Shown here piece by piece: positions 3,738-24,893 of a DNA stretch of 25,489 nt; positions within the stretch are counted from its first letter, which is position 1; every line of letters starts with the position of its first letter. The translations under genes were made by a program, and so were the position numbers. This DNA is from a virus: positions 1 through 25,489 of IMG/VR virus record IMGVR_UViG_3300024518_006375; one strand, written 5' to 3'. A model generated the notes under the pieces. The model worked only from the letters and a program-made list of their open reading frames with translations, was not told the origin of the DNA and did not search any database.

Positions 3738-6107
3738 TTAAACCACCACCACGTTAAAGCCTGCATCAGACTCATCTAATGAACCCTTTATAGTAACATT
3801 AGACTTATTTACCTGAACTTGGTTTGTATGACCACCAGAACGATCCCCAAGGTACACAATTTCACTTGTTGCAGTAGTGTCTATAATCGTGTCATTTAAA
3901 TTAATTGTAACATTTTGATCAGCTCCGAGGTAATAAATATAAAATAGAACCCCACCAACAGTATCAGGAATTGTTATTTCGCAATTATAGAGGTTTATAA
4001 CTAAATCATTTGTTCCGCTTGACGAGTCATTATGCATATTAAAAAATTCATTGAATCCTCCACGCATAGTAAATTTTTGATCATAAAAATTAAGTGTATT
4101 CGTTGTACTTGTGGGTGCGCCGTACATCTCAAAATGAAACCTATCGATATTTAAAGTTGACCCTTCGCTGTGCCAATTGATAGTTTTGTTTTCACCCGGT
4201 TGTAAAAATCTGTGTTGAGTCCCTCCGTGCTGCTCTAATCCCCAAACTGACCCATTAGGAGTTACTCTTTTGTTAATATCTGCACAATTTATCTCTAACC
4301 TGCTGCCTTTTGCAGCAATAACATGGACAGCAGCCGTTTGAAATTGTGTCTGATTTAGGTTAAATGTACAATCTAAAAACCTACCGCTCAAAATACCATA
4401 AGCGTAAATATCTTCAAGGTTTGGCAGTTCATTAAACATGATCCCTTTGAATATCATATTTTTAACATAATCATGATTAACCGATATTGTTGGCAATTCA
4501 GACCTATCATGTAAGTTGTCAACTGTGACACAAGTGTTGGCACATACTAAAGCTGAAGTGTTTAAGAGACGACAGTTATCTGTCATATTCCCCAGAAGTT
4601 GCACATCTCTTTTCAAATCGTTTTCGTCAAAACCTAGCACAGAATTACAATTGATAAATTTATTTTGTGTAACCAATGCATTTTCTATTGAGTAAAAAAT
4701 TATCGCATTTTCACAATTCATGACCTTATTCCCGTGGATTTCAATATGCAAACCACAAAGCAACATTCCGTGCGATGTCGCATCGATTTGATTATTAATA
4801 ATATCGACGTGGTTTGACACAACATCTTCACAATTAATTGCATACCGTGTAGAGTCGTTAAATTGAGGTAAATTTTGTTTCCAACCCAATCCATTATTAT
4901 ATATCCTATTAAACTCAACTAATGAATTGTTGACTAAGTTAGATATTGCTCCTCTTTGTCCCTCCGTAAGTGTATTATTTCTAATAATATAATGGTGAGG
5001 TGTGGGTGGAGTGACTTGAAACGTGATCTGAAAACTAGCAGAAGTCCTTTTTTCCTTCATACAGCAAAATCTTACTTTATCTGCACTAACAGGAATTTTA
5101 ATCAATTCTAAATATTTGAAATACTCAGCTTTAATAAACGTATCTGTGTCGTCATACCATGCTATTAATAACGTTTGATGTTCAAAATCTGGAATCCTTT
5201 GATACCCAACATTTGTACGTAATATCATTTCTCCACATATAATATTAGATAATGATACTAAATTAGTAGTGTAAGCCCCTACGACACCAGTGTCTATAGT
5301 CCCATCAACTCGGCTTACCATGCCTTTATAAAACGTTCTAGCTTCATCATACGGCAGAAATGACCCGTCATCAGGATTATGATCAGTCATACATGTTAGA
5401 TGGTCACCCATAAACCCCTTTATTGTCATATTACTAACTTCACAAAATGCTGAACCTTTTGAATTAAAGATACCATTAGTTAATTCTCTAAGGTTTTCAT
5501 CAGGGTCAACAAATGATCTCTCATATCGATCTCCTATTAATGTCCCATTTGTAATTTTAGAGTTTTTCGCCCTAGCAAATCCAAACACATTACCTGGGAT
5601 TTCATTCGGTAAGTATGAGCCGTTATCATAAGGATTTCGTATTGTTGTACCACTAGTTGCAGTTTCGTCAGAGTCAAACAGAACAGATATTTCTGACCTA
5701 TTAAAGTCAAATTCTAAGCCCGTCTGCATTACCATTTCAAATTCTGCATGTAAAACAGATGTTACATCATACCCTGGAATGTTCTCATAGCAAACATTAT
5801 AATGCCCTCTTTTTAAAACAGCCTTCTGGTATCCATTATTGTGAGCATAAACAAGAGCTTTTTCTATTCCTTTTTTATTATTATAAGCAACATCCCATTG
5901 GGCTTGCGAATATCCCCCGCCCGTTCTATTATCACCTTCTGTTATAGTCCACTGATTTTCTACACCAACGCCATTTTTTACAAGTGGAATTAAGTACGTA
6001 GTCTCTAAAGCATCTATAATTTTTTTCATGGATTCTAAGAGCGGAATGTCATACCTGTCATGACCCAGATCAGGCAATGTGTGTTCTTTGTAAATTGTTG
6101 TACTCAT
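3738..6107 (-). CDS. tail spike, right-handed beta-helix (789 aa)
   Basis: A 789-aa protein with the layout of a pectate-lyase-like receptor-binding tail spike. Residues 1-60 are a probable particle-attachment region. Around residues 75-105 is the start of the helix, with the usual motif of an index helix followed by a V-x-L-x-x-G-x-Y turn (KAVLKRGHYNV). The middle is a long series of short strands with Asn-rich turns (such as IRNNTLTEG, IYNNGLGWKQN, IINNQIDATSHG, IHGNKVMNCENA), typical of beta-helix rungs. The C-terminal third is beta-rich with NLYNCEITI and INLNDTIID. Such spikes bind and often cleave surface polysaccharide; no active site can be pinned down by eye. The ATG follows AAGAGG by five bases. 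It stands alone downstream of a strong terminator, so it probably has its own promoter. Confidence 0.85.
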   Translation of the reverse strand: MSTTIYKEHTLPDLGHDRYDIPLLESMKKIIDALETTYLIPLVKNGVGVENQWTITEGDNRTGGGYSQAQWDVAYNNKKGIEKALVYAHNNGYQKAVLKRGHYNVCYENIPGYDVTSVLHAEFEMVMQTGLEFDFNRSEISVLFDSDETATSGTTIRNPYDNGSYLPNEIPGNVFGFARAKNSKITNGTLIGDRYERSFVDPDENLRELTNGIFNSKGSAFCEVSNMTIKGFMGDHLTCMTDHNPDDGSFLPYDEARTFYKGMVSRVDGTIDTGVVGAYTTNLVSLSNIICGEMILRTNVGYQRIPDFEHQTLLIAWYDDTDTFIKAEYFKYLELIKIPVSADKVRFCCMKEKRTSASFQITFQVTPPTPHHYIIRNNTLTEGQRGAISNLVNNSLVEFNRIYNNGLGWKQNLPQFNDSTRYAINCEDVVSNHVDIINNQIDATSHGMLLCGLHIEIHGNKVMNCENAIIFYSIENALVTQNKFINCNSVLGFDENDLKRDVQLLGNMTDNCRLLNTSALVCANTCVTVDNLHDRSELPTISVNHDYVKNMIFKGIMFNELPNLEDIYAYGILSGRFLDCTFNLNQTQFQTAAVHVIAAKGSRLEINCADINKRVTPNGSVWGLEQHGGTQHRFLQPGENKTINWHSEGSTLNIDRFHFEMYGAPTSTTNTLNFYDQKFTMRGGFNEFFNMHNDSSSGTNDLVINLYNCEITIPDTVGGVLFYIYYLGADQNVTINLNDTIIDTTATSEIVYLGDRSGGHTNQVQVNKSNVTIKGSLDESDAGFNVVVV

Positions 6108-6461: not shown

Positions 6462-6645
6462 CCTCATACCTTTCTACAACAGCTATACCAGCTTTACAAT
6501 TCTCACAAAAAACAGTGGCTTTAATAGTAGATATGGGCTCTAGTACTAAAAATTCTCCACCACAGATATTACAAGCACCTTCTACCATAAGCGTCATCCA
6601 GTTGACCGCATCTATTTCTGGTTTATTGACAAATTTAAAACTCAT
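6445..6645 (-). CDS. zinc-ribbon protein (66 aa)
   Basis: A short protein with two CxxC knuckles: CNIC (residues 25-28) and CENC (47-50), separated by a hydrophobic strand region (EFLVLEPISTIKATVF). This four-Cys layout is a typical zinc ribbon and should fold around one Zn ion. The role (transcription, replication or protein contact) cannot be read from the sequence. Its ATG overlaps the preceding gene's TGA by four bases, so it is coupled to the coiled-coil protein upstream. Confidence 0.75.
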   Translation of the reverse strand: MSFKFVNKPEIDAVNWMTLMVEGACNICGGEFLVLEPISTIKATVFCENCKAGIAVVERYEDGEEF

Positions 6646-6962
6646 TCTAACTCCAGTTCTAATTGCACGAAGTTTGTTTTTTTAAGTCTTTCAACTTCAT
6701 CCTTAAGCTTTTTATTCTCTTCTTCCAGTATCCCATTTTGATCTTTATAACCTTTGACTAAGCCAGTAAAAACGGCAATTGCATCTTCTTCAGTAATAAC
6801 CATTCTTACTATTGTAGATCTCTTGTTGCTATCTTTTAATGCAATATCTACATCAATTATGGTGCTATTAGTCCAAGATTTGTTTTTAATAGTATAAACA
6901 TTGGCAATTTTAAAAGACTTATCACGATTTGATTGTTTTTTAGGAGATCTTAATATATTCAT
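6642..6962 (-). CDS. coiled-coil protein (106 aa)
   Basis: Residues 1-65 are mixed and probably beta-rich (SFKIANVYTIKNKS, STIIDVDIALKD, RSTIVRMVITEEDA); residues about 66-98 form a heptad-type coiled coil rich in Glu and Lys (NGILEEENKKLKDEVERLKK). It probably works as a dimer or oligomer. No family is recognised. Its ATG overlaps the stop of the MazG-like gene (TAATG), and its own stop overlaps the next start, so it lies in the middle of a coupled gene string. Confidence 0.7.
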   Translation of the reverse strand: MNILRSPKKQSNRDKSFKIANVYTIKNKSWTNSTIIDVDIALKDSNKRSTIVRMVITEEDAIAVFTGLVKGYKDQNGILEEENKKLKDEVERLKKTNFVQLELELE

Positions 6963-9134: not shown

Positions 9135-11516
9135 ATGCCTGTAAGAACCACAGACGGCTTAAACGCTAAGAAATACAACAAGCATAAGAATACGTATAAA
9201 GGTATAGAGGTTAAAGAAGCTAACGTTAAGTTGTTTCATAACCTCTTTATGGAGTCTATGGCTGAATCATGGAAGTATGACCTTGAAAAGCTACAACTTC
9301 AGCAATCTGGTGAATTAACTGAATCTCATGAGAGAAGAATTGAGTTAGAGTTCGCCCCTTTAAAAAAAGACATCAAAGGCTTATACAACATAATGTGTAT
9401 GCTTCGACTTACTGTTAGAGATAAGTTTAATAGAAGTCAGTCATATAGAGACGATATGACGAGAAGGTGTCGTGATGACTATGCTACATGGATAAACTAC
9501 TTTGGATGGACTGATGACTCAAGGCTTGTAAGTATGGGGATGCAGTCATTAGTTCCATTCGTTATGACTCAATCCCAAGAGACGGCACTTAAGCTTATAG
9601 ATAAGTGTATTCCAGCTCGTAGATCAGTTCTTGTTGAAAAGAGTCGTGCTGAAGGTATTACAGAGCTTCTTGCACATTATGATGTATGGAAGTGGCTTTA
9701 CACACCTGGTTATAAAGGTGGTTGGGGTAGTAGAAAACAAGATCTTGTTGATAAACGTGGTTCTCCCGGGTCACTCTTTAGTAGATTAAGGCGTATTATC
9801 TACAAACTACCTGTAGAGATGCGACCGGACGGCTATCATCAAGAGAGAAATGCTAATGATAAAATACTAACACTGCATAATCCTAATATGAACTCATACC
9901 TTATTGGTGAGGGTGGAGACAATATTGGTCGTGGTGATAAATATACTACAGCTAAGGTCGATGAAAAAGCTTTCGTAGAAAACCCAGAAGCGGTAGATGA
10001 AGCGTTATCCAACACCTGTGACTGTCAGATAGATATATCTACACCTAATGGACAAGACCACTTCTATAAAAAAAGGATGTCTGGTAAAGTAGAAGTGATT
10101 ACTCTTTGGTGGTACAATAATCCATCTAAGAATATCAACTGGAGAAAAGGTAAAAGACCACCTTCGGGAACTTGCTACTGGTATGAGTTTCAAAAGCTAA
10201 AACATGATGAAGTGATTGTTGCAAAAGAGATTGATATTGACTTTTTAGCTTCAATTGGTGGTGTTATGATTAAGCCTGAATGGGTGAGATCGGCTACAGA
10301 CTTTCAGTTGAAAAAAGAAGGACCAAGTATAAGTGGTCTTGATATTGCCGCAGGAGGGAAAGATAGCACTGTTTATATAAACAGAACAGGACCAGTTTGT
10401 GAGCTACCACAACCAATCCCTTTCTCATCTCCGACCACATCGGCATGGGCTTCAGCAGATCTGTGTAATGAAGACAATGCTAGTATCCTAGTTTATGATC
10501 AAAACACCCTAGGAGAAGGATTATATGCACTATTGAAAGAGGGTGATCGTAAGGTTAGGTTTGATCTTATTGGTGTATATGGGCAAGCTAAAGCCTCAGA
10601 CAGGCTCTATGATTCTGAGGGGTTAAAAGGTTATGAGAAGTTTAGAAATTTAAGGGCTGAGATTTGGTGGAGCCTTCGTAAAAGATTTGAGAAAACTCAT
10701 CTTCATGTGACAGGAGAAGCTCAGTATCCTGAAGAGGAGATGATTTCTGTTCCAAGTGGAGATCAGGAGTTGTTAAATCAGCTTAGTTCGCCTCGTATCG
10801 TTTTTTGCCCAAATGGGAAAATCGGTGTAGAGTCTAAAAGAGAAATGGCATCAAGAAATGTACCTTCTCCAGATAAAGCTGATGCATTATCATATTGCTA
10901 CTATCCTTTGGAGAGTAACAATGCTGTCCTGCCTCATTTTAAAAACACCAATAGCGAGAATTACAAAACCTTTCAACTACATAAGCAGATGCCTATAGAT
11001 ATGTATGTGTCCATATACCATACTAATGATATGAAGGTGTACATGAATGTCTGTGGTCTTGATATGAACACAAGAAAATTAATGATCATTAGCGAACACG
11101 TTTACGATTTCTTTGATCCTGAAGAAATTGCAAGAAACGCATGGGAGTCGGCTCAAGGGTTTTCTATCGTAAAATGGCTTGGAAATGAAGAGATCTTTGC
11201 TGGATTAGAAAAGGGTAAAAATGTAATCTGGTATGAATACAGAAAAGCAAAAATAAAACTAACAAGAAACTATAGGAGTGACCCGAAAACGGCTATAGAC
11301 ACTCTTGATAGAATGTTTAGAGATGATTATCTTGCAGTCCATGAGGACTGTGACAAAACAATGAATCACATAAGAAATTGGAAAAATATAAGTGGGAAAC
11401 CTCAAAACAACTTATACTTTGCATTATGTTTAGTACAGGTTATTACGGCTTTAAAGAAGAAAAAGATGGTTTATACACCACCTAAAGTCGAAGATAAAGG
11501 ATACAATATTTTATAA
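9135..11516 (+). CDS. terL: terminase large subunit, DNA-packaging ATPase/nuclease (793 aa)
   Basis: Drives DNA into the procapsid and cuts it. The ATPase half has a Walker A-like loop at residues 167-179 (VEKSRAEGITELL: K169, G174, T176), Walker B TTAKVDE with D276 and E277, and the coupling motif STPNG (302-306). The RNase H-fold nuclease half has D403 in GLDIAAGGKDS, D455 in DQNTLGEGL, and D580/D583 in SPDKADAL (acidic residues that bind the metals). An N-terminal helical extension of about 125 residues precedes the ATPase core. The protein runs some 190 residues past the nuclease domain; this tail (about 615-775) itself looks like a second RNase H-like unit without its acidic residues. 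The start abuts the stop of the 52-aa gene. Confidence 0.92.
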   Translation: MPVRTTDGLNAKKYNKHKNTYKGIEVKEANVKLFHNLFMESMAESWKYDLEKLQLQQSGELTESHERRIELEFAPLKKDIKGLYNIMCMLRLTVRDKFNRSQSYRDDMTRRCRDDYATWINYFGWTDDSRLVSMGMQSLVPFVMTQSQETALKLIDKCIPARRSVLVEKSRAEGITELLAHYDVWKWLYTPGYKGGWGSRKQDLVDKRGSPGSLFSRLRRIIYKLPVEMRPDGYHQERNANDKILTLHNPNMNSYLIGEGGDNIGRGDKYTTAKVDEKAFVENPEAVDEALSNTCDCQIDISTPNGQDHFYKKRMSGKVEVITLWWYNNPSKNINWRKGKRPPSGTCYWYEFQKLKHDEVIVAKEIDIDFLASIGGVMIKPEWVRSATDFQLKKEGPSISGLDIAAGGKDSTVYINRTGPVCELPQPIPFSSPTTSAWASADLCNEDNASILVYDQNTLGEGLYALLKEGDRKVRFDLIGVYGQAKASDRLYDSEGLKGYEKFRNLRAEIWWSLRKRFEKTHLHVTGEAQYPEEEMISVPSGDQELLNQLSSPRIVFCPNGKIGVESKREMASRNVPSPDKADALSYCYYPLESNNAVLPHFKNTNSENYKTFQLHKQMPIDMYVSIYHTNDMKVYMNVCGLDMNTRKLMIISEHVYDFFDPEEIARNAWESAQGFSIVKWLGNEEIFAGLEKGKNVIWYEYRKAKIKLTRNYRSDPKTAIDTLDRMFRDDYLAVHEDCDKTMNHIRNWKNISGKPQNNLYFALCLVQVITALKKKKMVYTPPKVEDKGYNIL

Positions 11517-17228: not shown

Positions 17229-18113
17229 ATGCTTACGACAAGAGAATTATTAGGCATTATACAAGAGTATATGGATGAACAGCCAAAAGAAAAGATCCTT
17301 ATGTATTTAAATAGGTCTTATCTAAGGCTGTGTCAAAACGATATTAAAGACTTCGTATTCCTTATTTGTCGTGATGATTTTGGGAATGATGCTTATGACA
17401 ATGATGATCTAAAATTCTCTTATCCTGTATTACGGCAAAAATATAACAAAGCTCCTAGTGATGAGGCTCCTGATTACATACCAATGCCATCAAGTGTTGA
17501 TATTATTGCTGAGAATTTTACTGATGAGGATGGTAATCTTCTACTAAAAGAATTGACTACTGTATTTATATACAGGGGGCAAGTTGTAACTTGCAGAAAG
17601 GTTAATGCTTTTTTTGTTATAAGAAATTTTAACCTTAACTATTACTATTACCCTATAAATCAGGTTCCGTATGAGCCTTTTACACCATACTTTAATGACG
17701 GGTACATTCGTCCATCAAATACAAATAGTGGTAATTTGCAACTATCTCGTTTTCCTTGTGACCTAAGACCACCAACTCAAGACAAATCAGCATTCTCTGT
17801 GTTTTATGATAAACCCTATGGGGACGCTACTGATGCGGATGAATCAAATAATTACTTGGGAGACGTTTATTGTGAGTTTTGGTTTACGCCTCCATCCTTA
17901 GCTACACCAGACTCAGTTATGTTATTGGATACTGGTAAGTGGCAAGACGAGTTAATAAACGGGGCAGTCGGCTATTATGAAGATATGGTTAATGGGGATT
18001 CTACAAGACTTAAAGAGTTTTTGAAGTTTAATCGTAAAGAATTTATGAATGAAGGTAATTCTAATATTCATAATAAAGGGAATCAACAGTACAAAACAAG
18101 GGATATCGGCTAA
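17229..18113 (+). CDS. head-tail adaptor (connector) protein candidate (294 aa)
   Basis: Begins with MLTTRELLGIIQEYMDEQPK followed by EKILMYLNRSYLRLCQND, a helical pattern (…IIQ…LN.aY..L..nd) typical of phage adaptor proteins that dock under the portal. The centre is beta-rich with a Tyr/Asn run (NFNLNYYYYPINQVPYEPF), and the C-terminal helix pair (INGAVGYYEDMVNGDSTRLK, EFLKFNRKEFM) also matches adaptors. Position after the head genes and before the nozzle-like gene agrees. A precise family (P22 gp4 or T7 gp11 type) is not resolved. The stop overlaps the next start (TAATG). Confidence 0.68.
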   Translation: MLTTRELLGIIQEYMDEQPKEKILMYLNRSYLRLCQNDIKDFVFLICRDDFGNDAYDNDDLKFSYPVLRQKYNKAPSDEAPDYIPMPSSVDIIAENFTDEDGNLLLKELTTVFIYRGQVVTCRKVNAFFVIRNFNLNYYYYPINQVPYEPFTPYFNDGYIRPSNTNSGNLQLSRFPCDLRPPTQDKSAFSVFYDKPYGDATDADESNNYLGDVYCEFWFTPPSLATPDSVMLLDTGKWQDELINGAVGYYEDMVNGDSTRLKEFLKFNRKEFMNEGNSNIHNKGNQQYKTRDIG

Positions 18114-19282
18114 TGTCTCGCAATAAAAGAAGATTTTCCCCTCATAGCAGGAAGTTCAACGAAAGAGGAGTTGAGCGTAGAGATGACAAATTTGTTGGTT
18201 TAGCTACAGATCATATAAGAACGCCTAAAGATCACCTTGAAGAGCTTGAGAATGCAAGAGCTTTTAAGTCTGAGATTAGAGGGCGAATCGGGACTTTATT
18301 GCATAATAGAGCTGATTATGAACTAAATCCAAGTCAAACGGAAACATACTCACAAGCATTAGCCTCTGGTGGTATCATATACGAGGCAAAAGGAGCTCTC
18401 CCTGTTGAGGGTGATATATTTATTACAACAAGTCATAATGATTTTTCAGGCTCCCCACTTGCGGAAGCTAAGAGATTATCACTAAATAGTAAAATATCTC
18501 CAGAGTATGACTATCCTAATACATGGGCTTATGATTTCTATAGTGTCGTAACATCTGATACCAAACCTGCATATATTGGTAATCTTTCTGTGCCTTATTT
18601 TAGAAATCACATTTCAAGAATATTAACGTCTGGTACTGATCTTTTCCATGTTAGTAAGTCAGGCAACACTATCACAAGAACTCTTACAACATCAGCTCCT
18701 TTTACAAATGATCTCGTTGGGATGTACTTTGTTTATGGGGCATTGGACACACAGTCTGACGTTTTTGTTGGAGTAAGAGATGTTATTACAAGTGTTGCAG
18801 ATTCAGATACTCTAACAGTAACTAGTACTGGCCTTGTTGATGATGGTGGATACCAATTGAATGTTATTCAACCTAAAATATATTCCTCATTATATATGCC
18901 TTCAGTGGGAAAAATGTATTTTCATGCTGGAGAAGAAGTATATGAGGTGGCTATACCTATTATGAAATGGTCTAAGTTATGTGGCATCTCTGATCTGAAA
19001 CCTTTTCCATCAGACTCTATTATGAGTGAAGTTAAAGGTGATGTTTTGCTTGCTAATGATAATGGGCACTTTAGAATTAAGGTTAGCAAAGGTAATGAAC
19101 CTTCTCACTATTGGAAGGTTAATACGGCTAGACCTAATAAAGCTCAAAATGCTCAGAAGTATTTTTTCGGCTTTGAAGATTCTGTATCTTCTGTAGGAGA
19201 AAATCCATATTCGCCATTAGGATTTTCAGGATTAACAAGTGATGGCGAATCAGACAAAACAGGTGGAATGTTACTTTCATAA
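18113..19282 (+). CDS. tail nozzle-like protein, N-terminal part (389 aa)
   Basis: Looks like the first section of a beta-propeller nozzle protein. A basic tail (MSRNKRRFSPHSRKFNERG) precedes NARAFKSEIRGRIGTLLHNR, the strand and 'R.G' turn common at the start of such propellers. Around residues 205-255 is an inserted unit (FTNDLVGMYFVYG, then VRDVITSVADSDTLTVTST). A propeller-like blade follows (GKMYFHAGEEVYEVAIPIMKW; GDVLLANDNGHFRIKV). The C-terminus ends soon after a Gly/Ser-rich stretch. The closing blades appear to be in the gene at 21776, with two fibre-like genes between. Assignment is by pattern and context. Confidence 0.55.
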   Translation: MSRNKRRFSPHSRKFNERGVERRDDKFVGLATDHIRTPKDHLEELENARAFKSEIRGRIGTLLHNRADYELNPSQTETYSQALASGGIIYEAKGALPVEGDIFITTSHNDFSGSPLAEAKRLSLNSKISPEYDYPNTWAYDFYSVVTSDTKPAYIGNLSVPYFRNHISRILTSGTDLFHVSKSGNTITRTLTTSAPFTNDLVGMYFVYGALDTQSDVFVGVRDVITSVADSDTLTVTSTGLVDDGGYQLNVIQPKIYSSLYMPSVGKMYFHAGEEVYEVAIPIMKWSKLCGISDLKPFPSDSIMSEVKGDVLLANDNGHFRIKVSKGNEPSHYWKVNTARPNKAQNAQKYFFGFEDSVSSVGENPYSPLGFSGLTSDGESDKTGGMLLS

Positions 19283-19291
19283 GGAGCAGGA

Positions 19292-20524
19292 ATGGCAGTA
19301 CCAGACGTTGACCTTCAGTGGGCTACGGGGCTAAATGCGGTTAAGATAATTGAACCAAGTCCTACTCAAAAGGATATCGGTTATGATGTTGGGAAATTTC
19401 CCATTCAAGGTGAATTTAATTATTTATTTAATGGTTACTATCAGTGGTTTCAGTATTTAACTGCCAATGTAACAGGTGCTATTGAAGATGTTGAATCTAT
19501 CTCAAAGGATTTTACATATCTTAATGATACTACTTATGGTGCTATTTCAGATCCTACAGCAAACGACAAAATCAATAAAAAAGTTTCTGCTAGTCAGGAT
19601 ATTTCTATACAAAGTACCGCTGTCGGTATTATAGAGGGTCTTGATTATAGATCTGGGGGTAACCAGCTTATAGTTGATATTGGTTCGTGCTATCTATACA
19701 AAGCTTTTAGTACTAAATGGGGCACTCCTGTACTTAAGTTTAATTTGAATAGCCAATTTGTAGGATCATTTATCAAGACTGGTGATTGGGATTATTTTGG
19801 TATTACTGGATTCGTAGCTTCTGGGTCAAGTGTTTTTGGGTCAGGTGTTACACTTTACGCCTTTGCCTTAGCTTCAACATCAACTTCATCGGTTGCTATT
19901 ATTGGAGATACGTCTTTAAATGCCACTAATGCTGTAAGTGCTTTTGCATCAACATACTCAGTGGATGTTAGTACTGTTTATGTAAGGAGAATAGCATCTC
20001 TTGTTGTAGGCTCTGATACTCAATCTATATCATTAAATCATCTTGGGAACTATACATCTGTATCAACAAGTGGTGTTACAAATAACACTCAGGCTGGAAG
20101 ATATGTTTTTACTGACAGTGCCGGATTGTTTATTCCCGCTACAGCTGTCCTTTTGGGTGGAGCTACAGTTTCAGTTAACTTGGAAAATAGCGTTATGACA
20201 CCTATCTTAAGCCAGTCTGTTGTTGATTTGACAATTTCATATAATGGTACTTCTTCGAATAGGCATACTGTTCAGGTTAGCCAATATAATGATACTTTGA
20301 CTGTTAATCCATATAAAACATCCAGCAATTACTCTACAAATTTAGTACAAACAAATGGGTTTAATGCATTAATAAGTGCAAGCACGTTTGATATATCTGT
20401 ATCATCTAATACATTTGATATTGGAAATATTTCAACAGGAGCGTCTCCAGCTTCAGATATTCTTTATTTGGATATTAAAGTAAATGGTTGGACTGATTAC
20501 AGGGAGCAATACAAAATAGGGTAA
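19292..20524 (+). CDS. tail fibre-like protein (410 aa)
   Basis: The N-terminus (residues 1-60) has the pattern of phage fibre attachment modules: DVGKFPIQGEFNYLFNGYYQ then WFQYLTANV, like the 'E-x-N-x-L-F-N-x-x-x-W-x-x-Y' motif of tail-fibre N-termini. Behind it is a Ser/Thr/Ala/Gly-rich beta region through residue 400 (ASTSTSSVAIIGDTSLNATN; NTFDIGNISTGAS) with no collagen-like or enzymatic motif. It is probably a fibre or appendage attached near the nozzle. Its ATG follows AAGGAG by six bases. It lies between the two parts of the nozzle-like protein. Confidence 0.65.
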   Translation: MAVPDVDLQWATGLNAVKIIEPSPTQKDIGYDVGKFPIQGEFNYLFNGYYQWFQYLTANVTGAIEDVESISKDFTYLNDTTYGAISDPTANDKINKKVSASQDISIQSTAVGIIEGLDYRSGGNQLIVDIGSCYLYKAFSTKWGTPVLKFNLNSQFVGSFIKTGDWDYFGITGFVASGSSVFGSGVTLYAFALASTSTSSVAIIGDTSLNATNAVSAFASTYSVDVSTVYVRRIASLVVGSDTQSISLNHLGNYTSVSTSGVTNNTQAGRYVFTDSAGLFIPATAVLLGGATVSVNLENSVMTPILSQSVVDLTISYNGTSSNRHTVQVSQYNDTLTVNPYKTSSNYSTNLVQTNGFNALISASTFDISVSSNTFDIGNISTGASPASDILYLDIKVNGWTDYREQYKIG

Positions 20525-20545
20525 TTTTTAAAAAAAGAGGAATAT

Positions 20546-21775
20546 ATGCCATACATAACCGTGAACGGCTATCAAGTCCCGCAGATAGGTACTCAAGATA
20601 CAGAGAGTCCTAATTATGCGGATGCAATAGAAACAGTATTAGTATCTTTACTTCAAAACAAAAACACAGCTACTGCCAATCTTGATGTGTTTATACCTGG
20701 AACAGGAGTTTTGTACTATACCGCTTCTGGTGTTACTATTGCCGATGGTGATTTTAAGTATGAATTAGAAGCAGGAACAGGTGACTTTTTAGCTTTTATT
20801 AGAAGGTCAGGCGTTTGGGTGGAGTATAAAAGATCTCATGAGGATTCTGGACGTATTTTGGAAACATTTATAGGTAAAAACTCTCATTCTCATACATCTA
20901 CCACAGAAAGTGACGACTCTCACATTTTAACATCTAATACTAATGGTCAAAATAGAGTTGGAGCGGATGTTGTTATTCAAAATGTTGACAATCTTGGTGT
21001 TGGTGATAGTTCTGCTGGGAATCCTATTATTATAAACACTCAAGGGTCTGTTGGCACATCTGACCTTACAAGTCTAATACAAGGTATTGCACTGGTCGTG
21101 TCTGGGGATGCTGTTGCTGAGAAGATAGCTCTAAATATTAGACCTAATTGGACTTATGCACTTAAAGTTAATGCTGAAACAGCTCAATCACCTTTAGCTG
21201 GGTATACTTATGATGGTGTGACTGTGACGAATAGATCTGTAGAGTTTTCAACTCCAGGAAACGATGTTAGTATTTTTGTGAGTGACAATGATACAATCAT
21301 ACTAGGGTTTACAAGCCCCTTCTCAATATTTGAAGCAGCGTTAGCAACTGGAGCAAATCAGAATATTCTTGCAACATATCAGTATAGTACAGGGAATGAT
21401 ACATTTGCCCCTTTAACGATCAACAGTGATACAACTAATGGATTTACATCATTGTCTGGGCAAATATCGTTTAACCCTCCTGTTGGTTGGGCTACAAGTA
21501 ATTTGTACCAAGGTGACTCAGTTTTAGCTCTTTATTATATTGAGATAACAAGAACAAGAAATGGATTATCAACAATTCCTATTGAGAGTCAGTTTAAGTT
21601 ATTTCAATCTGGAGGCTCTGATATGTATATTCATGGAGATGGATGTATAGAACCTGTAACAATTTCAAATTCGGCAGCTGGCAATAATTGTATTTATTTT
21701 TCTGTAGAAAAGAATACCTTGTGCTGGAAAAACAAAGTTGGTGTCGTAAACACAATAGATATAACGGTGGCATAA
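20546..21775 (+). CDS. tail appendage protein (409 aa)
   Basis: A beta-rich structural protein of almost the same length as its upstream neighbour but without visible similarity. The N-terminus (MPYITVNGYQVPQIGTQD) and early NYADAIETVLVSLLQNKN look like a docking segment. Around residues 110-125 is a His/Ser/Thr/Asp-rich patch (NSHSHTSTTESDDSHIL) that could bind metal ions, as short HxH repeats do in fibre proteins; this is inference. Later residues are strands with little distinctive sequence. It ends directly in front of the second nozzle-like gene (TAA then ATG). Confidence 0.65.
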   Translation: MPYITVNGYQVPQIGTQDTESPNYADAIETVLVSLLQNKNTATANLDVFIPGTGVLYYTASGVTIADGDFKYELEAGTGDFLAFIRRSGVWVEYKRSHEDSGRILETFIGKNSHSHTSTTESDDSHILTSNTNGQNRVGADVVIQNVDNLGVGDSSAGNPIIINTQGSVGTSDLTSLIQGIALVVSGDAVAEKIALNIRPNWTYALKVNAETAQSPLAGYTYDGVTVTNRSVEFSTPGNDVSIFVSDNDTIILGFTSPFSIFEAALATGANQNILATYQYSTGNDTFAPLTINSDTTNGFTSLSGQISFNPPVGWATSNLYQGDSVLALYYIEITRTRNGLSTIPIESQFKLFQSGGSDMYIHGDGCIEPVTISNSAAGNNCIYFSVEKNTLCWKNKVGVVNTIDITVA

Positions 21776-23347
21776 ATGAGTTATGGTAGTGGTACATGGG
21801 GAGTTGGAGTTTGGGGCGTTGATGATGAAGCTGGGCCTATAATTACTGATATAGATGCCCCTGAATATGATCCTAATCCATTAAGTGATAGGATTGATGT
21901 TAAATTCAAGTATCGTTATCTGATAACAATGAGTAGAAACACAGGTGGAAATATTGCTTTAGGCCGTATAGATGCGGCACTAGGGCAAGAATTAGAACAT
22001 GAGAGTGCTTCAAACATTCCTCCACTAAGAGGAAATGACTTTTTAGAGTCAATAACTTTTAGTGATATTTCAGCATCTCCAGATAGCGATAATGTTATTG
22101 AATTAAGGGGTCCTTCTGAGAATAATGAACATTACACTCACTATTCAATATATAGGACAAAAAACACATTAGCCGATGATGCGGATTTTGAAACAGTAGA
22201 AGATACTTTTTTATATGTAGATGATGTCCCAGTTGTTAAATTTGGATATGCAACAAGTTTTGTTGGTGAACCAGACGGAAATAGCGGGCTAATGGTATTT
22301 CAAAGTAAAACTATGGGTGTTGAAGACGTTGGATCGTCTATTTCTGATGAGTTCGCTGGTGAGGCTTACGAGATTGTGGATTATGTTGAAAGAAATGGTG
22401 ACAATGTTGTCTTTAGAGTAATGAATAGATCTGACCCTTTAGTTCTGAATCCTGGTGTAGATAAATGGTACACTATTGGTGCTGACTGGGTTTTCCAAGG
22501 GGAACGAGTTTTTGCTGACAATGGAGATGTTTTATATATAGCAAGTTCATGGCAACGTGATTTTATTAGCACTGATGTTGGGAAACAAATCTTTTGGGCA
22601 GATGGAAGCGTTTCTGTTATTCGCAAAGTAAATAATATTAGGGAAATCGTTCTTTTTGAACCAGATTTAATTCCTGAAGATTTTAATGGTACAGGTTCAT
22701 TTATAGGTGTAATTGGGTATCTTGATAGAACTTATAACGACTTCACAGAGGACTCAACTCTTACAACATATCAAAGACGTGGAGATCCTTTTTACTTTCT
22801 ACAAACTAGGTTTTTTGCTCCTTTACCTGATGGTGGGTATTCTGCTGTAAAAGGTGGAGCTTATTTTGTTAGCTCTTTGGTTAATAGTGAATATTACTAT
22901 TCTCAATTAAGAGAGTTGTATAGAACGGGGTCATATCATCCTTCAATACAACTTAATACAAAACCTGTAGGAACTATAACAAGGTTAAAAGATTACCCTG
23001 AAGTTTTAGCTATATTTGGAAAGCATTTTACATATTATCTTGATACTACTGTAGAAGTTAATGGTGGAGAATCCTTACTAGGTGAATTTATTGTAACCTA
23101 CTCTGATCCTAAATTAATAACAAACAGAGTTGGTTGTAATAGTGAAGGTTCGGCTGCTTCTATTGATGGAGGTGGTGAAATCATTTTAACAAATGAACCT
23201 GCTGTTAGATTTTTTGATGGATTTAAATACAGTGATAATATCGCTCTTAATACAGTACAGGATAGTAAAATATCTCAACTCAAAGTTGACACTGTTTTAG
23301 AGTGGGACAAAAGACGTGGTTTAAGTATTTGGGGGGTAAATGGCTAG
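21776..23347 (+). CDS. tail nozzle-like protein, C-terminal part (523 aa)
   Basis: Starts MSYGSGTWGVGVWGVD, a Gly/aromatic motif also seen in the 139-aa PKD protein. Residues about 45-150 resemble the Ig-like insert of nozzle proteins (KYRYLITMSRNTGGN; then ELEHESASNIPPL; then HYTHYSIYRTKNT and a YVDD turn). An inserted unit follows (DFISTDVGKQIFWADGSVSV). The last 160 residues are typical propeller blades: PVGTITRLKDYPEVLAIFGK, HFTYYLDTT, RVGCNSEGSAASIDGGGEII, then EPAVRFFDGFKYSDNI. Together with the gene at 18113 it would make a full propeller. Similar proteins are P22 gp10 and T7 gp12 in function; homology is not proven here. It overlaps the next gene by eight bases. Confidence 0.62.
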   Translation: MSYGSGTWGVGVWGVDDEAGPIITDIDAPEYDPNPLSDRIDVKFKYRYLITMSRNTGGNIALGRIDAALGQELEHESASNIPPLRGNDFLESITFSDISASPDSDNVIELRGPSENNEHYTHYSIYRTKNTLADDADFETVEDTFLYVDDVPVVKFGYATSFVGEPDGNSGLMVFQSKTMGVEDVGSSISDEFAGEAYEIVDYVERNGDNVVFRVMNRSDPLVLNPGVDKWYTIGADWVFQGERVFADNGDVLYIASSWQRDFISTDVGKQIFWADGSVSVIRKVNNIREIVLFEPDLIPEDFNGTGSFIGVIGYLDRTYNDFTEDSTLTTYQRRGDPFYFLQTRFFAPLPDGGYSAVKGGAYFVSSLVNSEYYYSQLRELYRTGSYHPSIQLNTKPVGTITRLKDYPEVLAIFGKHFTYYLDTTVEVNGGESLLGEFIVTYSDPKLITNRVGCNSEGSAASIDGGGEIILTNEPAVRFFDGFKYSDNIALNTVQDSKISQLKVDTVLEWDKRRGLSIWGVNG

Positions 23348-24893
23348 TCCTGTTGTAGATTACACGGTTGTTCCTAATAGTGGAATTACTCCTCTAACAG
23401 TTACAATTACATTAAACTCTGTTATGATTGATGGGTTTGATCTTGATCCGTATTCTATCGCCCATTTTGGGTTTTTAAAAAGTAATGGATCATTCGATGC
23501 TCTTCAAATGTCACATTTTGGTTACTATTTGGCATTGCCAGCTATTAACTATATATGGAAATTTGGTGATGGTAACACATTTGTAGGTGAAAACCCTAGA
23601 ACTCATACATACACTACACCAGGGGATTACATTTTAAAGCTATGCCTTATTGTAGACAGTGTCGCTTATGAATACCCAACAACAGTAACAGTGTTAGCTT
23701 CAGAAACCAGCTTAGTTGGCCTTGGGCAAAACCCTTCAAGAGAGTCTCTTAATTATGGGAATGATGAAACTCAAGGTTTTGGATGGAGCAAAAACTCCGG
23801 AGACGGTCATTTATGGCCTGACTCTTATGGTTCAATGATATCAACATTTAATGAAGACGGTGATCATGAACAATTGATATTTGATTCATTAACTGGTTTA
23901 CCATATGTATATGATACAAGAAAGCTTATAACATCTTCAAATCTTATTGAAGTGTGGAAAGATAAAGTAAATCCATTAAGTGAAGGTTCTGGAACAGAGA
24001 TAACAACCAGAGTTAAACTTCAGGAATATGTCGGATCTCATGAAAGTTATTTTCAACAAATGAGTGATATAAACTTGTTTTATGAACCGATGTATAGAGC
24101 ACGACAGGATGCTATAGGATATACAGCTAAAGGGCTAAGGGACGCTTTCGAAGTTGATTTAGAATTGTATGCAGATGAAAAACTTGATAAAGTCGCTCAT
24201 GCGGACAACGTTCCAATTGATAGGGAATTGTTTTTTGATAGGATAATCAAAGGTCATATAATGCAGATAGCTTTTGAGACTGCTTCTTCTGAGTATCGGT
24301 TTACTGGTTCTGAAGTGTATCTTACTAATTATGATCATGCCGTTTGGCCTTCTCAACCAGATATGACAGAAAAAGACTATCAGAGTGAATCAAGCGACCT
24401 TCAAGGATGGCTTACTAGAAACCAATTCAAGCTTTTAGATCTTGTAACATCTGAAAGCTATGGTAATTCTGATGACTATGACAATATCGCTGGACCAGAT
24501 TCATTAGGTGGAAGTGCTTTCCAAGTAAATAAGCCTGGAGATATTTCATTTAATAAAACCGTTAATGATGCTACTGTTTGGAGTAATGACCCAGCTGGAC
24601 CTACTATAACTAGCTCGTCACCTCACGAGTTAACTGTAATCGGTTCTTTTGATACCCCTGAGTTTCCAGACGACAAAACAAATCCAGCTGTTGTGACATG
24701 GTATTTTTTACATATTAAGCGAACTGGACCAGATCCTCACTTTGCTTTTGAATTCACCTTTATAGATGGTGTTAAGTACTTTGATGTGAGATTTTATAAT
24801 GTAGATGCTTCTTTATCAGAAATGTCTATACAGTACCAATTTGATGATGTAAAAGAAAATAACGCTAATGCTATTTGTAAAAGTTGGTTTTAA
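23340..24893 (+). CDS. PKD-domain tail protein (517 aa)
   Basis: Residues 1-120 form a PKD domain: it opens with VDYTVVPNSGITPLTVTITL, and ends with YIWKFGDGNTFVGENPRTHT and YTTPGDYILKLCLIVDS, containing the WxFGDG and H-x-Y-x-x-P-G-x-Y motifs. Between the first and later strands is an unusual insertion of about 40 residues (with two HFG repeats: AHFGFL and SHFGYYL). The remainder (120-517) has no recognised domain; it contains acidic, aromatic-rich stretches and a likely C-terminal beta domain. The role is probably a tail surface or tip protein. Its start overlaps the nozzle-like gene and the stop overlaps the next (TAATG). Confidence 0.7.
   Translation: MASPVVDYTVVPNSGITPLTVTITLNSVMIDGFDLDPYSIAHFGFLKSNGSFDALQMSHFGYYLALPAINYIWKFGDGNTFVGENPRTHTYTTPGDYILKLCLIVDSVAYEYPTTVTVLASETSLVGLGQNPSRESLNYGNDETQGFGWSKNSGDGHLWPDSYGSMISTFNEDGDHEQLIFDSLTGLPYVYDTRKLITSSNLIEVWKDKVNPLSEGSGTEITTRVKLQEYVGSHESYFQQMSDINLFYEPMYRARQDAIGYTAKGLRDAFEVDLELYADEKLDKVAHADNVPIDRELFFDRIIKGHIMQIAFETASSEYRFTGSEVYLTNYDHAVWPSQPDMTEKDYQSESSDLQGWLTRNQFKLLDLVTSESYGNSDDYDNIAGPDSLGGSAFQVNKPGDISFNKTVNDATVWSNDPAGPTITSSSPHELTVIGSFDTPEFPDDKTNPAVVTWYFLHIKRTGPDPHFAFEFTFIDGVKYFDVRFYNVDASLSEMSIQYQFDDVKENNANAICKSWF

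Follow-up and report, generated by a model that had tools for sequence, protein, structure and literature searches.

Can the tail nozzle of a phage be assembled from more than one polypeptide? This question is raised by the tail genes in a stretch of 25,489 nucleotides (positions 1 to 25,489, hereafter the window) of the IMG/VR virus record IMGVR_UViG_3300024518_006375, a contig from an uncultured tailed phage. The phage is short-tailed, and an earlier note on this DNA had proposed that the beta-propeller of its nozzle is divided between a 389-residue and a 523-residue protein, with two fibre-like genes inserted between them. The open reading frames on which the proposal rested are present as described, encoding 389 (18113-19282), 410 (19292-20524), 409 (20546-21775) and 523 amino acids (21776-23347), all on the plus strand. 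We consider one nozzle in two chains to be the best single explanation of this arrangement, and from sequence comparison we hold it tentatively, with a confidence somewhat short of even. If these proteins are a nozzle, at least two genes encode it, and a device that is a single propeller-built polypeptide in phages T7 and crAss001 would here consist of chains translated separately. This device is the gate retaining the phage genome, and a propeller in separate chains would change the understanding of how the gate is assembled and opened; the case is possibly a new form of a known machine.

How are the genes arranged? First, genes of 263, 294, 389, 410, 409, 523 and 517 codons follow one another on the plus strand with tight spacing. 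The 389-residue gene starts where the 294-residue gene ends, the 517-residue gene overlaps the end of the 523-residue gene by 8 bases, and the bases upstream of the gene starts are, judged by eye, compatible with separate translation. Second, the 389-residue protein, the proposed N-terminal piece, is encoded directly 3′ of an adaptor-like gene (294 residues, 17229-18113, plus strand), the place of a nozzle gene after its adaptor, both in the window and in the relative described next; the 294-residue protein owes the name adaptor only to its position and to visual inspection, and it has no family match in Pfam or PHROGs. Third, the order is conserved. We scanned 2.9 million virus contigs eight times, starting from the 523- and 389-residue proteins, the portal and alignments; these scans, each of which demanded that a short peptide pattern be matched exactly, yielded only two close relatives. 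One of these, G002, is a near-identical sister contig (a single mismatch across 18,453 bases, and one gap beyond them). The other, G001, is a 55.6-kb contig from another sample, with a portal 71% identical to that of the window, in which the adaptor-like gene is followed by genes of 503, 409, 407 and 522 amino acids and then by a homologue, identified by eye, of the 517-residue gene. Identity between the window and G001 is 57% for the 389-residue protein, 61% over the whole length of the 523-residue protein, 61% for the 409-residue protein and 66% for the adaptor-like protein. The G001 homologue of the 389-residue protein has 503 residues, with an insert of about 110 residues near residue 125. 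This extra stretch (in the gene at L011:11854-13365) looks immunoglobulin-like (Ig-like) by eye. The earlier note held the two parts to be continuous in phages with a single nozzle gene; no fused homologue was found in these searches. Four further loci (L039-L042) resemble the window in the portal only, one of them (L039) supplying a nozzle-type protein for comparison, and a search of genome contigs with the C-terminus of the 523-residue protein found no relatives.

Are these genes under constraint? Between the window and G001, the ratio of nonsynonymous to synonymous substitution rates (dN/dS) is 0.22 for the 389-residue gene (dN 0.38, dS 1.78), 0.17 for the 523-residue gene (dN 0.32, dS 1.83), 0.29 for the 410-residue gene and 0.22 for the 409-residue gene, and 0.11 for each of the portal, adaptor-like and head genes; these ratios are rough, dS being 1.4-2.4 across the genes compared and near saturation, and the 517-residue gene was left out. 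The five tail genes compared have no internal stops and low dN/dS, and there is no decay in any gene of the comparison. An assembly error or a set of decaying fragments, for which we found no support, is contradicted by these values and by the agreement with both relatives, G002 being nearly identical and G001 independent, and we regard it as very improbable. The two conserved open reading frames between the 389- and 523-residue genes also argue against an intron, intein or frameshift that would join them.

What suggests that the two proteins are parts of one nozzle? We compared their segments with a set of nozzles made up of T7 gp12, P22 gp10, the muzzle of crAss001 and further proteins, which were included because of their position or annotation or because they are homologous to the three named or to nozzles of the JY07 and BPP-1 types. 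The opening segment of the 389-residue protein (residues 28-68, VGLATDHIRTPKDHLEELENARAF...GRIGT, 18194-18316) resembles nozzle N-termini by eye. In the G001 homologue, the N-terminal segment was the best of 13 when compared with 36 nozzle N-termini (mean z-score 0.83, with 7 of the 36 above 2), its best single partner being phiGT1 (z 5.2); 11 control segments reached a mean z of at most 0.32, with at most 3 of the 36 above 2. Among 35 whole-length comparisons (five proteins with seven nozzles, 200 shuffles each), z exceeded 2.5 in two pairs, namely this homologue with the SIO1 nozzle and the 523-residue protein with T7 gp12. The former pair, selected out of those 35, aligns from the N-termini of both proteins onwards along about 250 residues, with 6 of 2000 shuffles as good; the latter joins residues 87-181 to residues 570-649 of T7 gp12 (29 of 2000 shuffles), a place that misfits the proposed model. 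The 523-residue protein, the proposed middle and closing piece, has a closing segment (residues 330-523, 22763-23344) that contains both motifs quoted in the earlier note, DYPEVLAIFGKHFTYYLD (residues 406-423, 22991-23044) and EPAVRFFDGFKY (residues 474-485, 23195-23230). Against the interiors of 35 nozzles, residues 395-500 of this protein ranked second of 12 and the G001 counterpart first; the mean z was 0.33 and 0.43, respectively, and that of the best control 0.23, a small margin.

A further signal lies in the Ig-like segment of the 523-residue protein (about residues 36-160, ...HYTHYSIYRT..., 21881-22255). Our calibration family was the JY07 type (Microcystis phage Mwe-JY07 and prophages; 31 sequences, some partial), whose solved relative, 8jov_A, was deposited as 'Virion-associated phage protein'. 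That this is a nozzle family is our own reading from gene position, from the match of its profile to crAss muzzles (P 4.5e-4) and from one member annotated as a phage stabilization protein. By eye, its members run from an opening through an Ig domain with an RxYRT motif to the blades, and the Ig-like segment of the 523-residue protein aligns there; with hhalign, residues 113-181 matched the Ig region of this family at the expected place with P values of 0.026 and 0.019, compared with 0.33 and 0.38 for reversed sequences. These values are similar to those of the phiGT1 (0.019 and 0.019) and BPP-1 (0.0062 and 0.012) proteins, both taken for nozzles here; nozzles of other phages outside the family gave 0.18 and 0.17 (P22), 0.31 and 0.22 (LUZ24), 0.46 and 0.41 (T7) and 0.19 and 0.14 (SIO1). 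The JY07-type protein differs from the window in being encoded by a single gene of about 580 residues, which in JY07 itself lies directly after a gene annotated as a tail fiber protein. The portals are weakly like that of the window (JY07, 22% identity, expect value (E) 0.5; L039, 25%, E 1e-5 among candidates). Overall, the pairwise tests lend modest support to an arrangement in which the opening would lie in the 389-residue protein and the closing part in the 523-residue protein, and none to a part for the 517-residue protein; 'opening' and 'closing' of the propeller are themselves interpretations rather than observations.

The earlier note had also reported an inserted unit of the form F-x-x-D-x-VG-K/M in both proteins. 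Such a unit (hereafter the VG unit) is present in both, in the 389-residue protein at about residues 197-240 (18701-18832) and in the 523-residue protein at residues 263-298 (22562-22669), but the spelling differs, being FTNDLVGM (F-x-x-D-x-V-G-M) from residue 197 of the former and FISTDVGK (F-x-x-x-D-V-G-K) from residue 263 of the latter, and the G001 homologue of the 389-residue protein fits neither pattern. The bare motif is near chance, with 6 matches in 360 proteins against a shuffle mean of 4.8, in a set that includes the window and G001 and in which three of the six matches are the 389- and 523-residue proteins and the G001 homologue of the latter; a looser motif gave 26 matches against 18.3 in shuffles. 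Over the 50-60 residues of the unit, the 523-residue protein resembles the nozzle that HTVC010P encodes in a single gene; this pair, which had been chosen by eye, gave z 7.4 with 0 of 1000 shuffles as good, and the G001 copy gave z 2.4. By pattern and by eye, VG-like units occur in three of the five nozzles of the BPP-1/HTVC010P set, namely in HTVC010P gp13 and two prophage relatives of BPP-1 bbp13, where the unit stands ahead of a blade; HTVC010P gp13 and BPP-1 bbp13, both annotated as tail protein, are encoded by single genes, unlike the window proteins, and the BPP-1 protein matches Pfam Phage_nozzle only below the cutoff of that family (E 0.005). The unit may therefore be an insert common to nozzles, in line with the earlier note, and alone it is no proof of a split.

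Might the shared unit instead reflect duplication, one of the two proteins (the 523- or the 389-residue one) having originated as an extra copy of a nozzle gene and one copy now serving as a fibre adaptor? The VG units of the two G001 homologues are alike (z 7.0, 0 of 1000 shuffles), and the profiles of the 389- and 523-residue proteins align over 75 columns around and after the unit (P 0.056). In the window, however, the two units are not alike (z -1.3; cross pairs between the window and G001, 0.65 and 0.14), nothing else aligned, the C-terminal parts matching over 12 columns only, and the presence of VG units in three of the five BPP-1/HTVC010P nozzles means that a shared unit needs no gene duplication. 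We consider the second-copy explanation improbable.

Several results weigh against the two-chain nozzle. The opening segment of the window 389-residue protein is indistinguishable from controls, its mean z being 0.04 with 3 of the 36 N-termini exceeding 2; residues 251-375 of this protein, compared with nozzle interiors, ranked 10 of 12 (7 of 12 in G001), like controls; and its best hhalign P value against nozzle profiles was 0.34, with no match to the JY07-type family (0.72 and 0.57). In pairwise comparison the Ig-like segment of the 523-residue protein ranked 2 of 12 in the window and 9 of 12 in G001. The 523-residue protein gave no hit to a BPP-1/HTVC010P-type profile of five sequences (six prophage loci were tried, and L077, L079 and L081, which gave no open reading frame, were left out), scoring P 0.48, worse than its reverse at 0.20, and over its whole length it was at chance with HTVC010P (273 of 1000 shuffles). 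In hhalign comparisons with single nozzles, the window proteins gave nothing above reversed controls. Hidden Markov models of regions of the JY07-type family, run against the 360 proteins, gave results that were all at noise level: for the Ig region, the 523-residue protein ranked 4 (3.8 bits, E 1.3, on a par with the BPP-1 protein) and its G001 homologue 54; for the C-terminal region, the G001 homologue of the 517-residue protein ranked 6 (1.7 bits, E 4.2) and the 517-residue protein itself 51; for the middle blades, the 517-residue protein ranked 7 (1.4 bits); and the 389-residue protein appeared only at rank 52 of one region. Residues 240-335 of the 517-residue protein, compared with nozzle C-termini, ranked 3 of 11, like controls.

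Library searches point the same way. At E values up to 10, Pfam gave no match for the 389- or 523-residue protein or their G001 homologues; PHROGs gave none for the 523-residue protein and, for the others, weak and unrelated matches at E 0.13 or worse, with no nozzle PHROG; and PDB sequences, searched with a profile of each window/G001 pair, gave none. A tblastn search of 50,697 phage records with the 389- and 523-residue proteins returned no match at E 0.01, and one with the G001 homologue of the latter at E 10 returned two records of a single phage, over 43 residues at E 4. AlphaFold models built on two-sequence alignments were unusable (predicted local distance difference test scores of 29.5 for the 523- and 29.0 for the 389-residue protein). 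The segment limits had been set by eye before testing, nozzles within a family are not independent, the margins are small, and for most members of the nozzle set the name nozzle comes only from gene position, annotation or general background. The power of the library searches is low, because several accepted or likely nozzles miss each other; the JY07 protein, too, has no Pfam match. The earlier view that the 389-residue protein holds the start of the nozzle and the 523-residue protein its middle and closing part is favoured by position, conservation and several weak signals, and no test was clearly significant for both proteins.

The reading that we rank second, and regard as rather unlikely, is that these are two different complete tail proteins, the 389-residue protein being a short nozzle or an extra ring under the adaptor and the 523-residue protein a tail-tip or hub protein with Ig, VG and propeller-like segments. 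No profile ties both to one known nozzle; P22 gp10 has only 472 residues, so either protein could be complete; and paralogous tail-ring proteins are described, such as the dual tubeA of phiGT1 (PMC10386132) and the four ring proteins of crAss001 (PMC10172136). Against this stand the closing-blade signal in the 523-residue protein and the opening signal in the G001 homologue of the 389-residue protein, weak as both are, and the fact that the start of the 523-residue protein, used as a control against nozzle N-termini, scored below that homologue (mean z 0.29 in the window and -0.21 in G001, compared with 0.83). The same comparison bears on a different division, in which the nozzle consists of the 523- and 517-residue proteins only and the 389-residue protein is a separate adaptor or fibre-dock protein. 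The window 389-residue protein could not be told from controls in any nozzle test, and the 523-residue protein plus the middle of the 517-residue protein is longer than P22 gp10; on the other hand, the 523-residue protein has by eye no opening segment, and its N-terminus lies within the control range, whereas that of the 389 homologue lies outside it. We regard this division as improbable.

How, then, would a nozzle in two chains be built? The open reading frames, their order, their conservation and the constraint on them are observed; the identity as a nozzle, the allocation of blades to the chains and their assembly are inferred. The 389-residue protein would supply the opening strands and the first blades, preceded by a basic N-terminal tail, and the 523-residue protein the Ig-like insert, the VG unit and the closing blades; both chains would join in the same protomer, with six protomers per tail beneath the adaptor ring. 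The place of the break would be the outward loop that bears the tip or Ig insert in single-chain nozzles, leaving each blade intact, and the fibre genes would now occupy that break in the operon. By eye, the 389-residue protein seems to end in a hairpin-like stretch (residues 348-373, 19154-19231) resembling the start of the Ig insert of JY07-type nozzles, and the 523-residue protein to open with a complete Ig domain; we propose that the break lies inside or before the Ig-like insert.

The known nozzles make such a break conceivable. T7 gp12 is described as a seven-bladed propeller whose first strand closes the ring and whose first 45 residues join a C-terminal platform, with a second opening of the ring at the point where blade 3 passes out to the tip domain (PMC6702177). 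This gap in the T7 propeller at blade 3, from which the tip domain emerges, would make a break there tolerable, and a cut in such an insert loop would keep the blades whole. The T7 gene lies directly after that of the adaptor, as the 389-residue gene does after the adaptor-like gene; unlike the window, it is one gene of 794 residues with no fibre genes inside, and its product has no significant match to the window proteins. The crAss001 muzzle, gp44, is described as a ring-joining domain with a seven-bladed propeller like that of T7, which carries Ig domains both within blade 3 and between this blade and blade 2 (PMC10172136). This muzzle, the C-terminal domain of which is PF25729, also differs from the window in being a single gene product of 1371 residues, and the crAss muzzle profile gave no significant match to the 389-, 523- or 517-residue protein. 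In the crAss muzzles of cr109, cr272 and cr60, an in-frame TAG was read as X. It lies near the start of the genes under table 11 (L034, L035 and L037). An in-frame TAG in such muzzle genes is as in phages with a recoded stop.

Is there a precedent for a nozzle-type protein in pieces? Two crAss-type muzzles suggest that the single-polypeptide nozzle is not universal. In ctfjg026 (MW202828.1, L036:10793-16813), the muzzle is divided between proteins of 1551 and 267 amino acids, with a 183-residue gene between them. The larger protein aligns to muzzle columns 1-330 (P 1.7e-7) and weakly to columns 1035-1211 (P 0.057), and the smaller, encoded two genes downstream, aligns to columns 1212-1292 (P 1.4e-7) and holds the C-terminal domain of the muzzle (PF25729, E 1.1e-20). 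In Cellulophaga phage phi13:2 (KC821633.1, L086:4156-9726), the adjacent genes for gp120 (1613 residues) and gp121 (241 residues), both annotated as structural proteins by similarity to phi8:3, align to columns 8-51 and 1105-1191 (P 0.002 each) and to columns 1247-1327 (P 2e-8), respectively. Homologues of the 267-residue protein occur in 87 phage records, 68 of Flavobacterium and 15 of Cellulophaga phages (gene structure was examined in two of the 87); in 86 records the match covers 80% or more of the protein, and phrog_18548 is a PHROG of about its length. As in the proposed arrangement of the window, the nozzle-type protein lies in more than one gene, and in ctfjg026 another gene lies within the break; in contrast to the window, only the C-terminal part is detached and two fibre genes are absent from the break. 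The likeness drawn here is one of arrangement. A literature search, with subscription literature mostly outside its reach, found no paper on split nozzles or muzzles. Because phi13:2 is cultured, the general question of muzzles in pieces can be tested in the laboratory, which may be the more useful result.

A more elaborate possibility involves the 517-residue protein (23340-24893, plus strand), about which the earlier note was silent. It contains a PKD domain (Pfam PF18911 PKD_4, E 6.8e-8, residues 69-102), and we conjecture that it might add a third and last piece of the nozzle after that domain. A protomer of three chains (389, 523 and 517 residues), cut at two Ig-insert loops with the fibre genes in the first cut, seems unlikely to us. 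If it were true, nozzle genes would, together with the muzzles of Cellulophaga and possibly Flavobacterium phages, have been split repeatedly at insert loops, making the tail gate modular.

The two genes between the proposed pieces had both been called fibre-like. For the 410-residue protein (19292-20524) this holds through the G001 homologue, residues 1-59 of which match phrog_4465, a tail fiber protein, at E 4.3e-6 (E 0.59 only for the window copy); the 409-residue protein (20546-21775) has no PHROG match and is taken as a second fibre by eye. The genes that precede the 263-residue gene encode a portal (phrog_156, E 5.9e-29), a protein of 488 residues and the major head protein (phrog_334, E 1.7e-11). 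In G001, the tail genes are followed further down by those for a protein with an SLT transglycosylase match (Pfam, E 1.4e-23) and for a protein of 2404 residues (L012:3559-10773) with no Pfam match at E 0.01. An SLT transglycosylase protein and a very long protein downstream of the tail genes are as expected of podoviral ejection proteins.

Several minor observations were made along the way. In Vibrio phage 1F273_PE002 (PQ189384.1, 32208-33386), the region that matches a JY07-type nozzle (residues 1-375 of the latter) spans two annotated genes, which may be another split nozzle. In Aeromonas phage phiARM81mr (L071:675-1961), a gene annotated as a retron-type reverse transcriptase lies just upstream of a JY07-type nozzle gene and is perhaps part of a diversity-generating element. 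In the window, the terminase large subunit (793 residues, 9135-11516) has matches to other terminases that begin, among the matches listed, at residues 111-138, leaving its N-terminal stretch unmatched. On the minus strand, a 789-residue protein (3738-6107) has no PHROG match at E 0.001 and no Pfam match at E 0.01, and a 106-residue protein (6642-6962), encoded next to a MazG-like gene, matches phrog_14909, 'virion structural protein' (E 2.1e-5).

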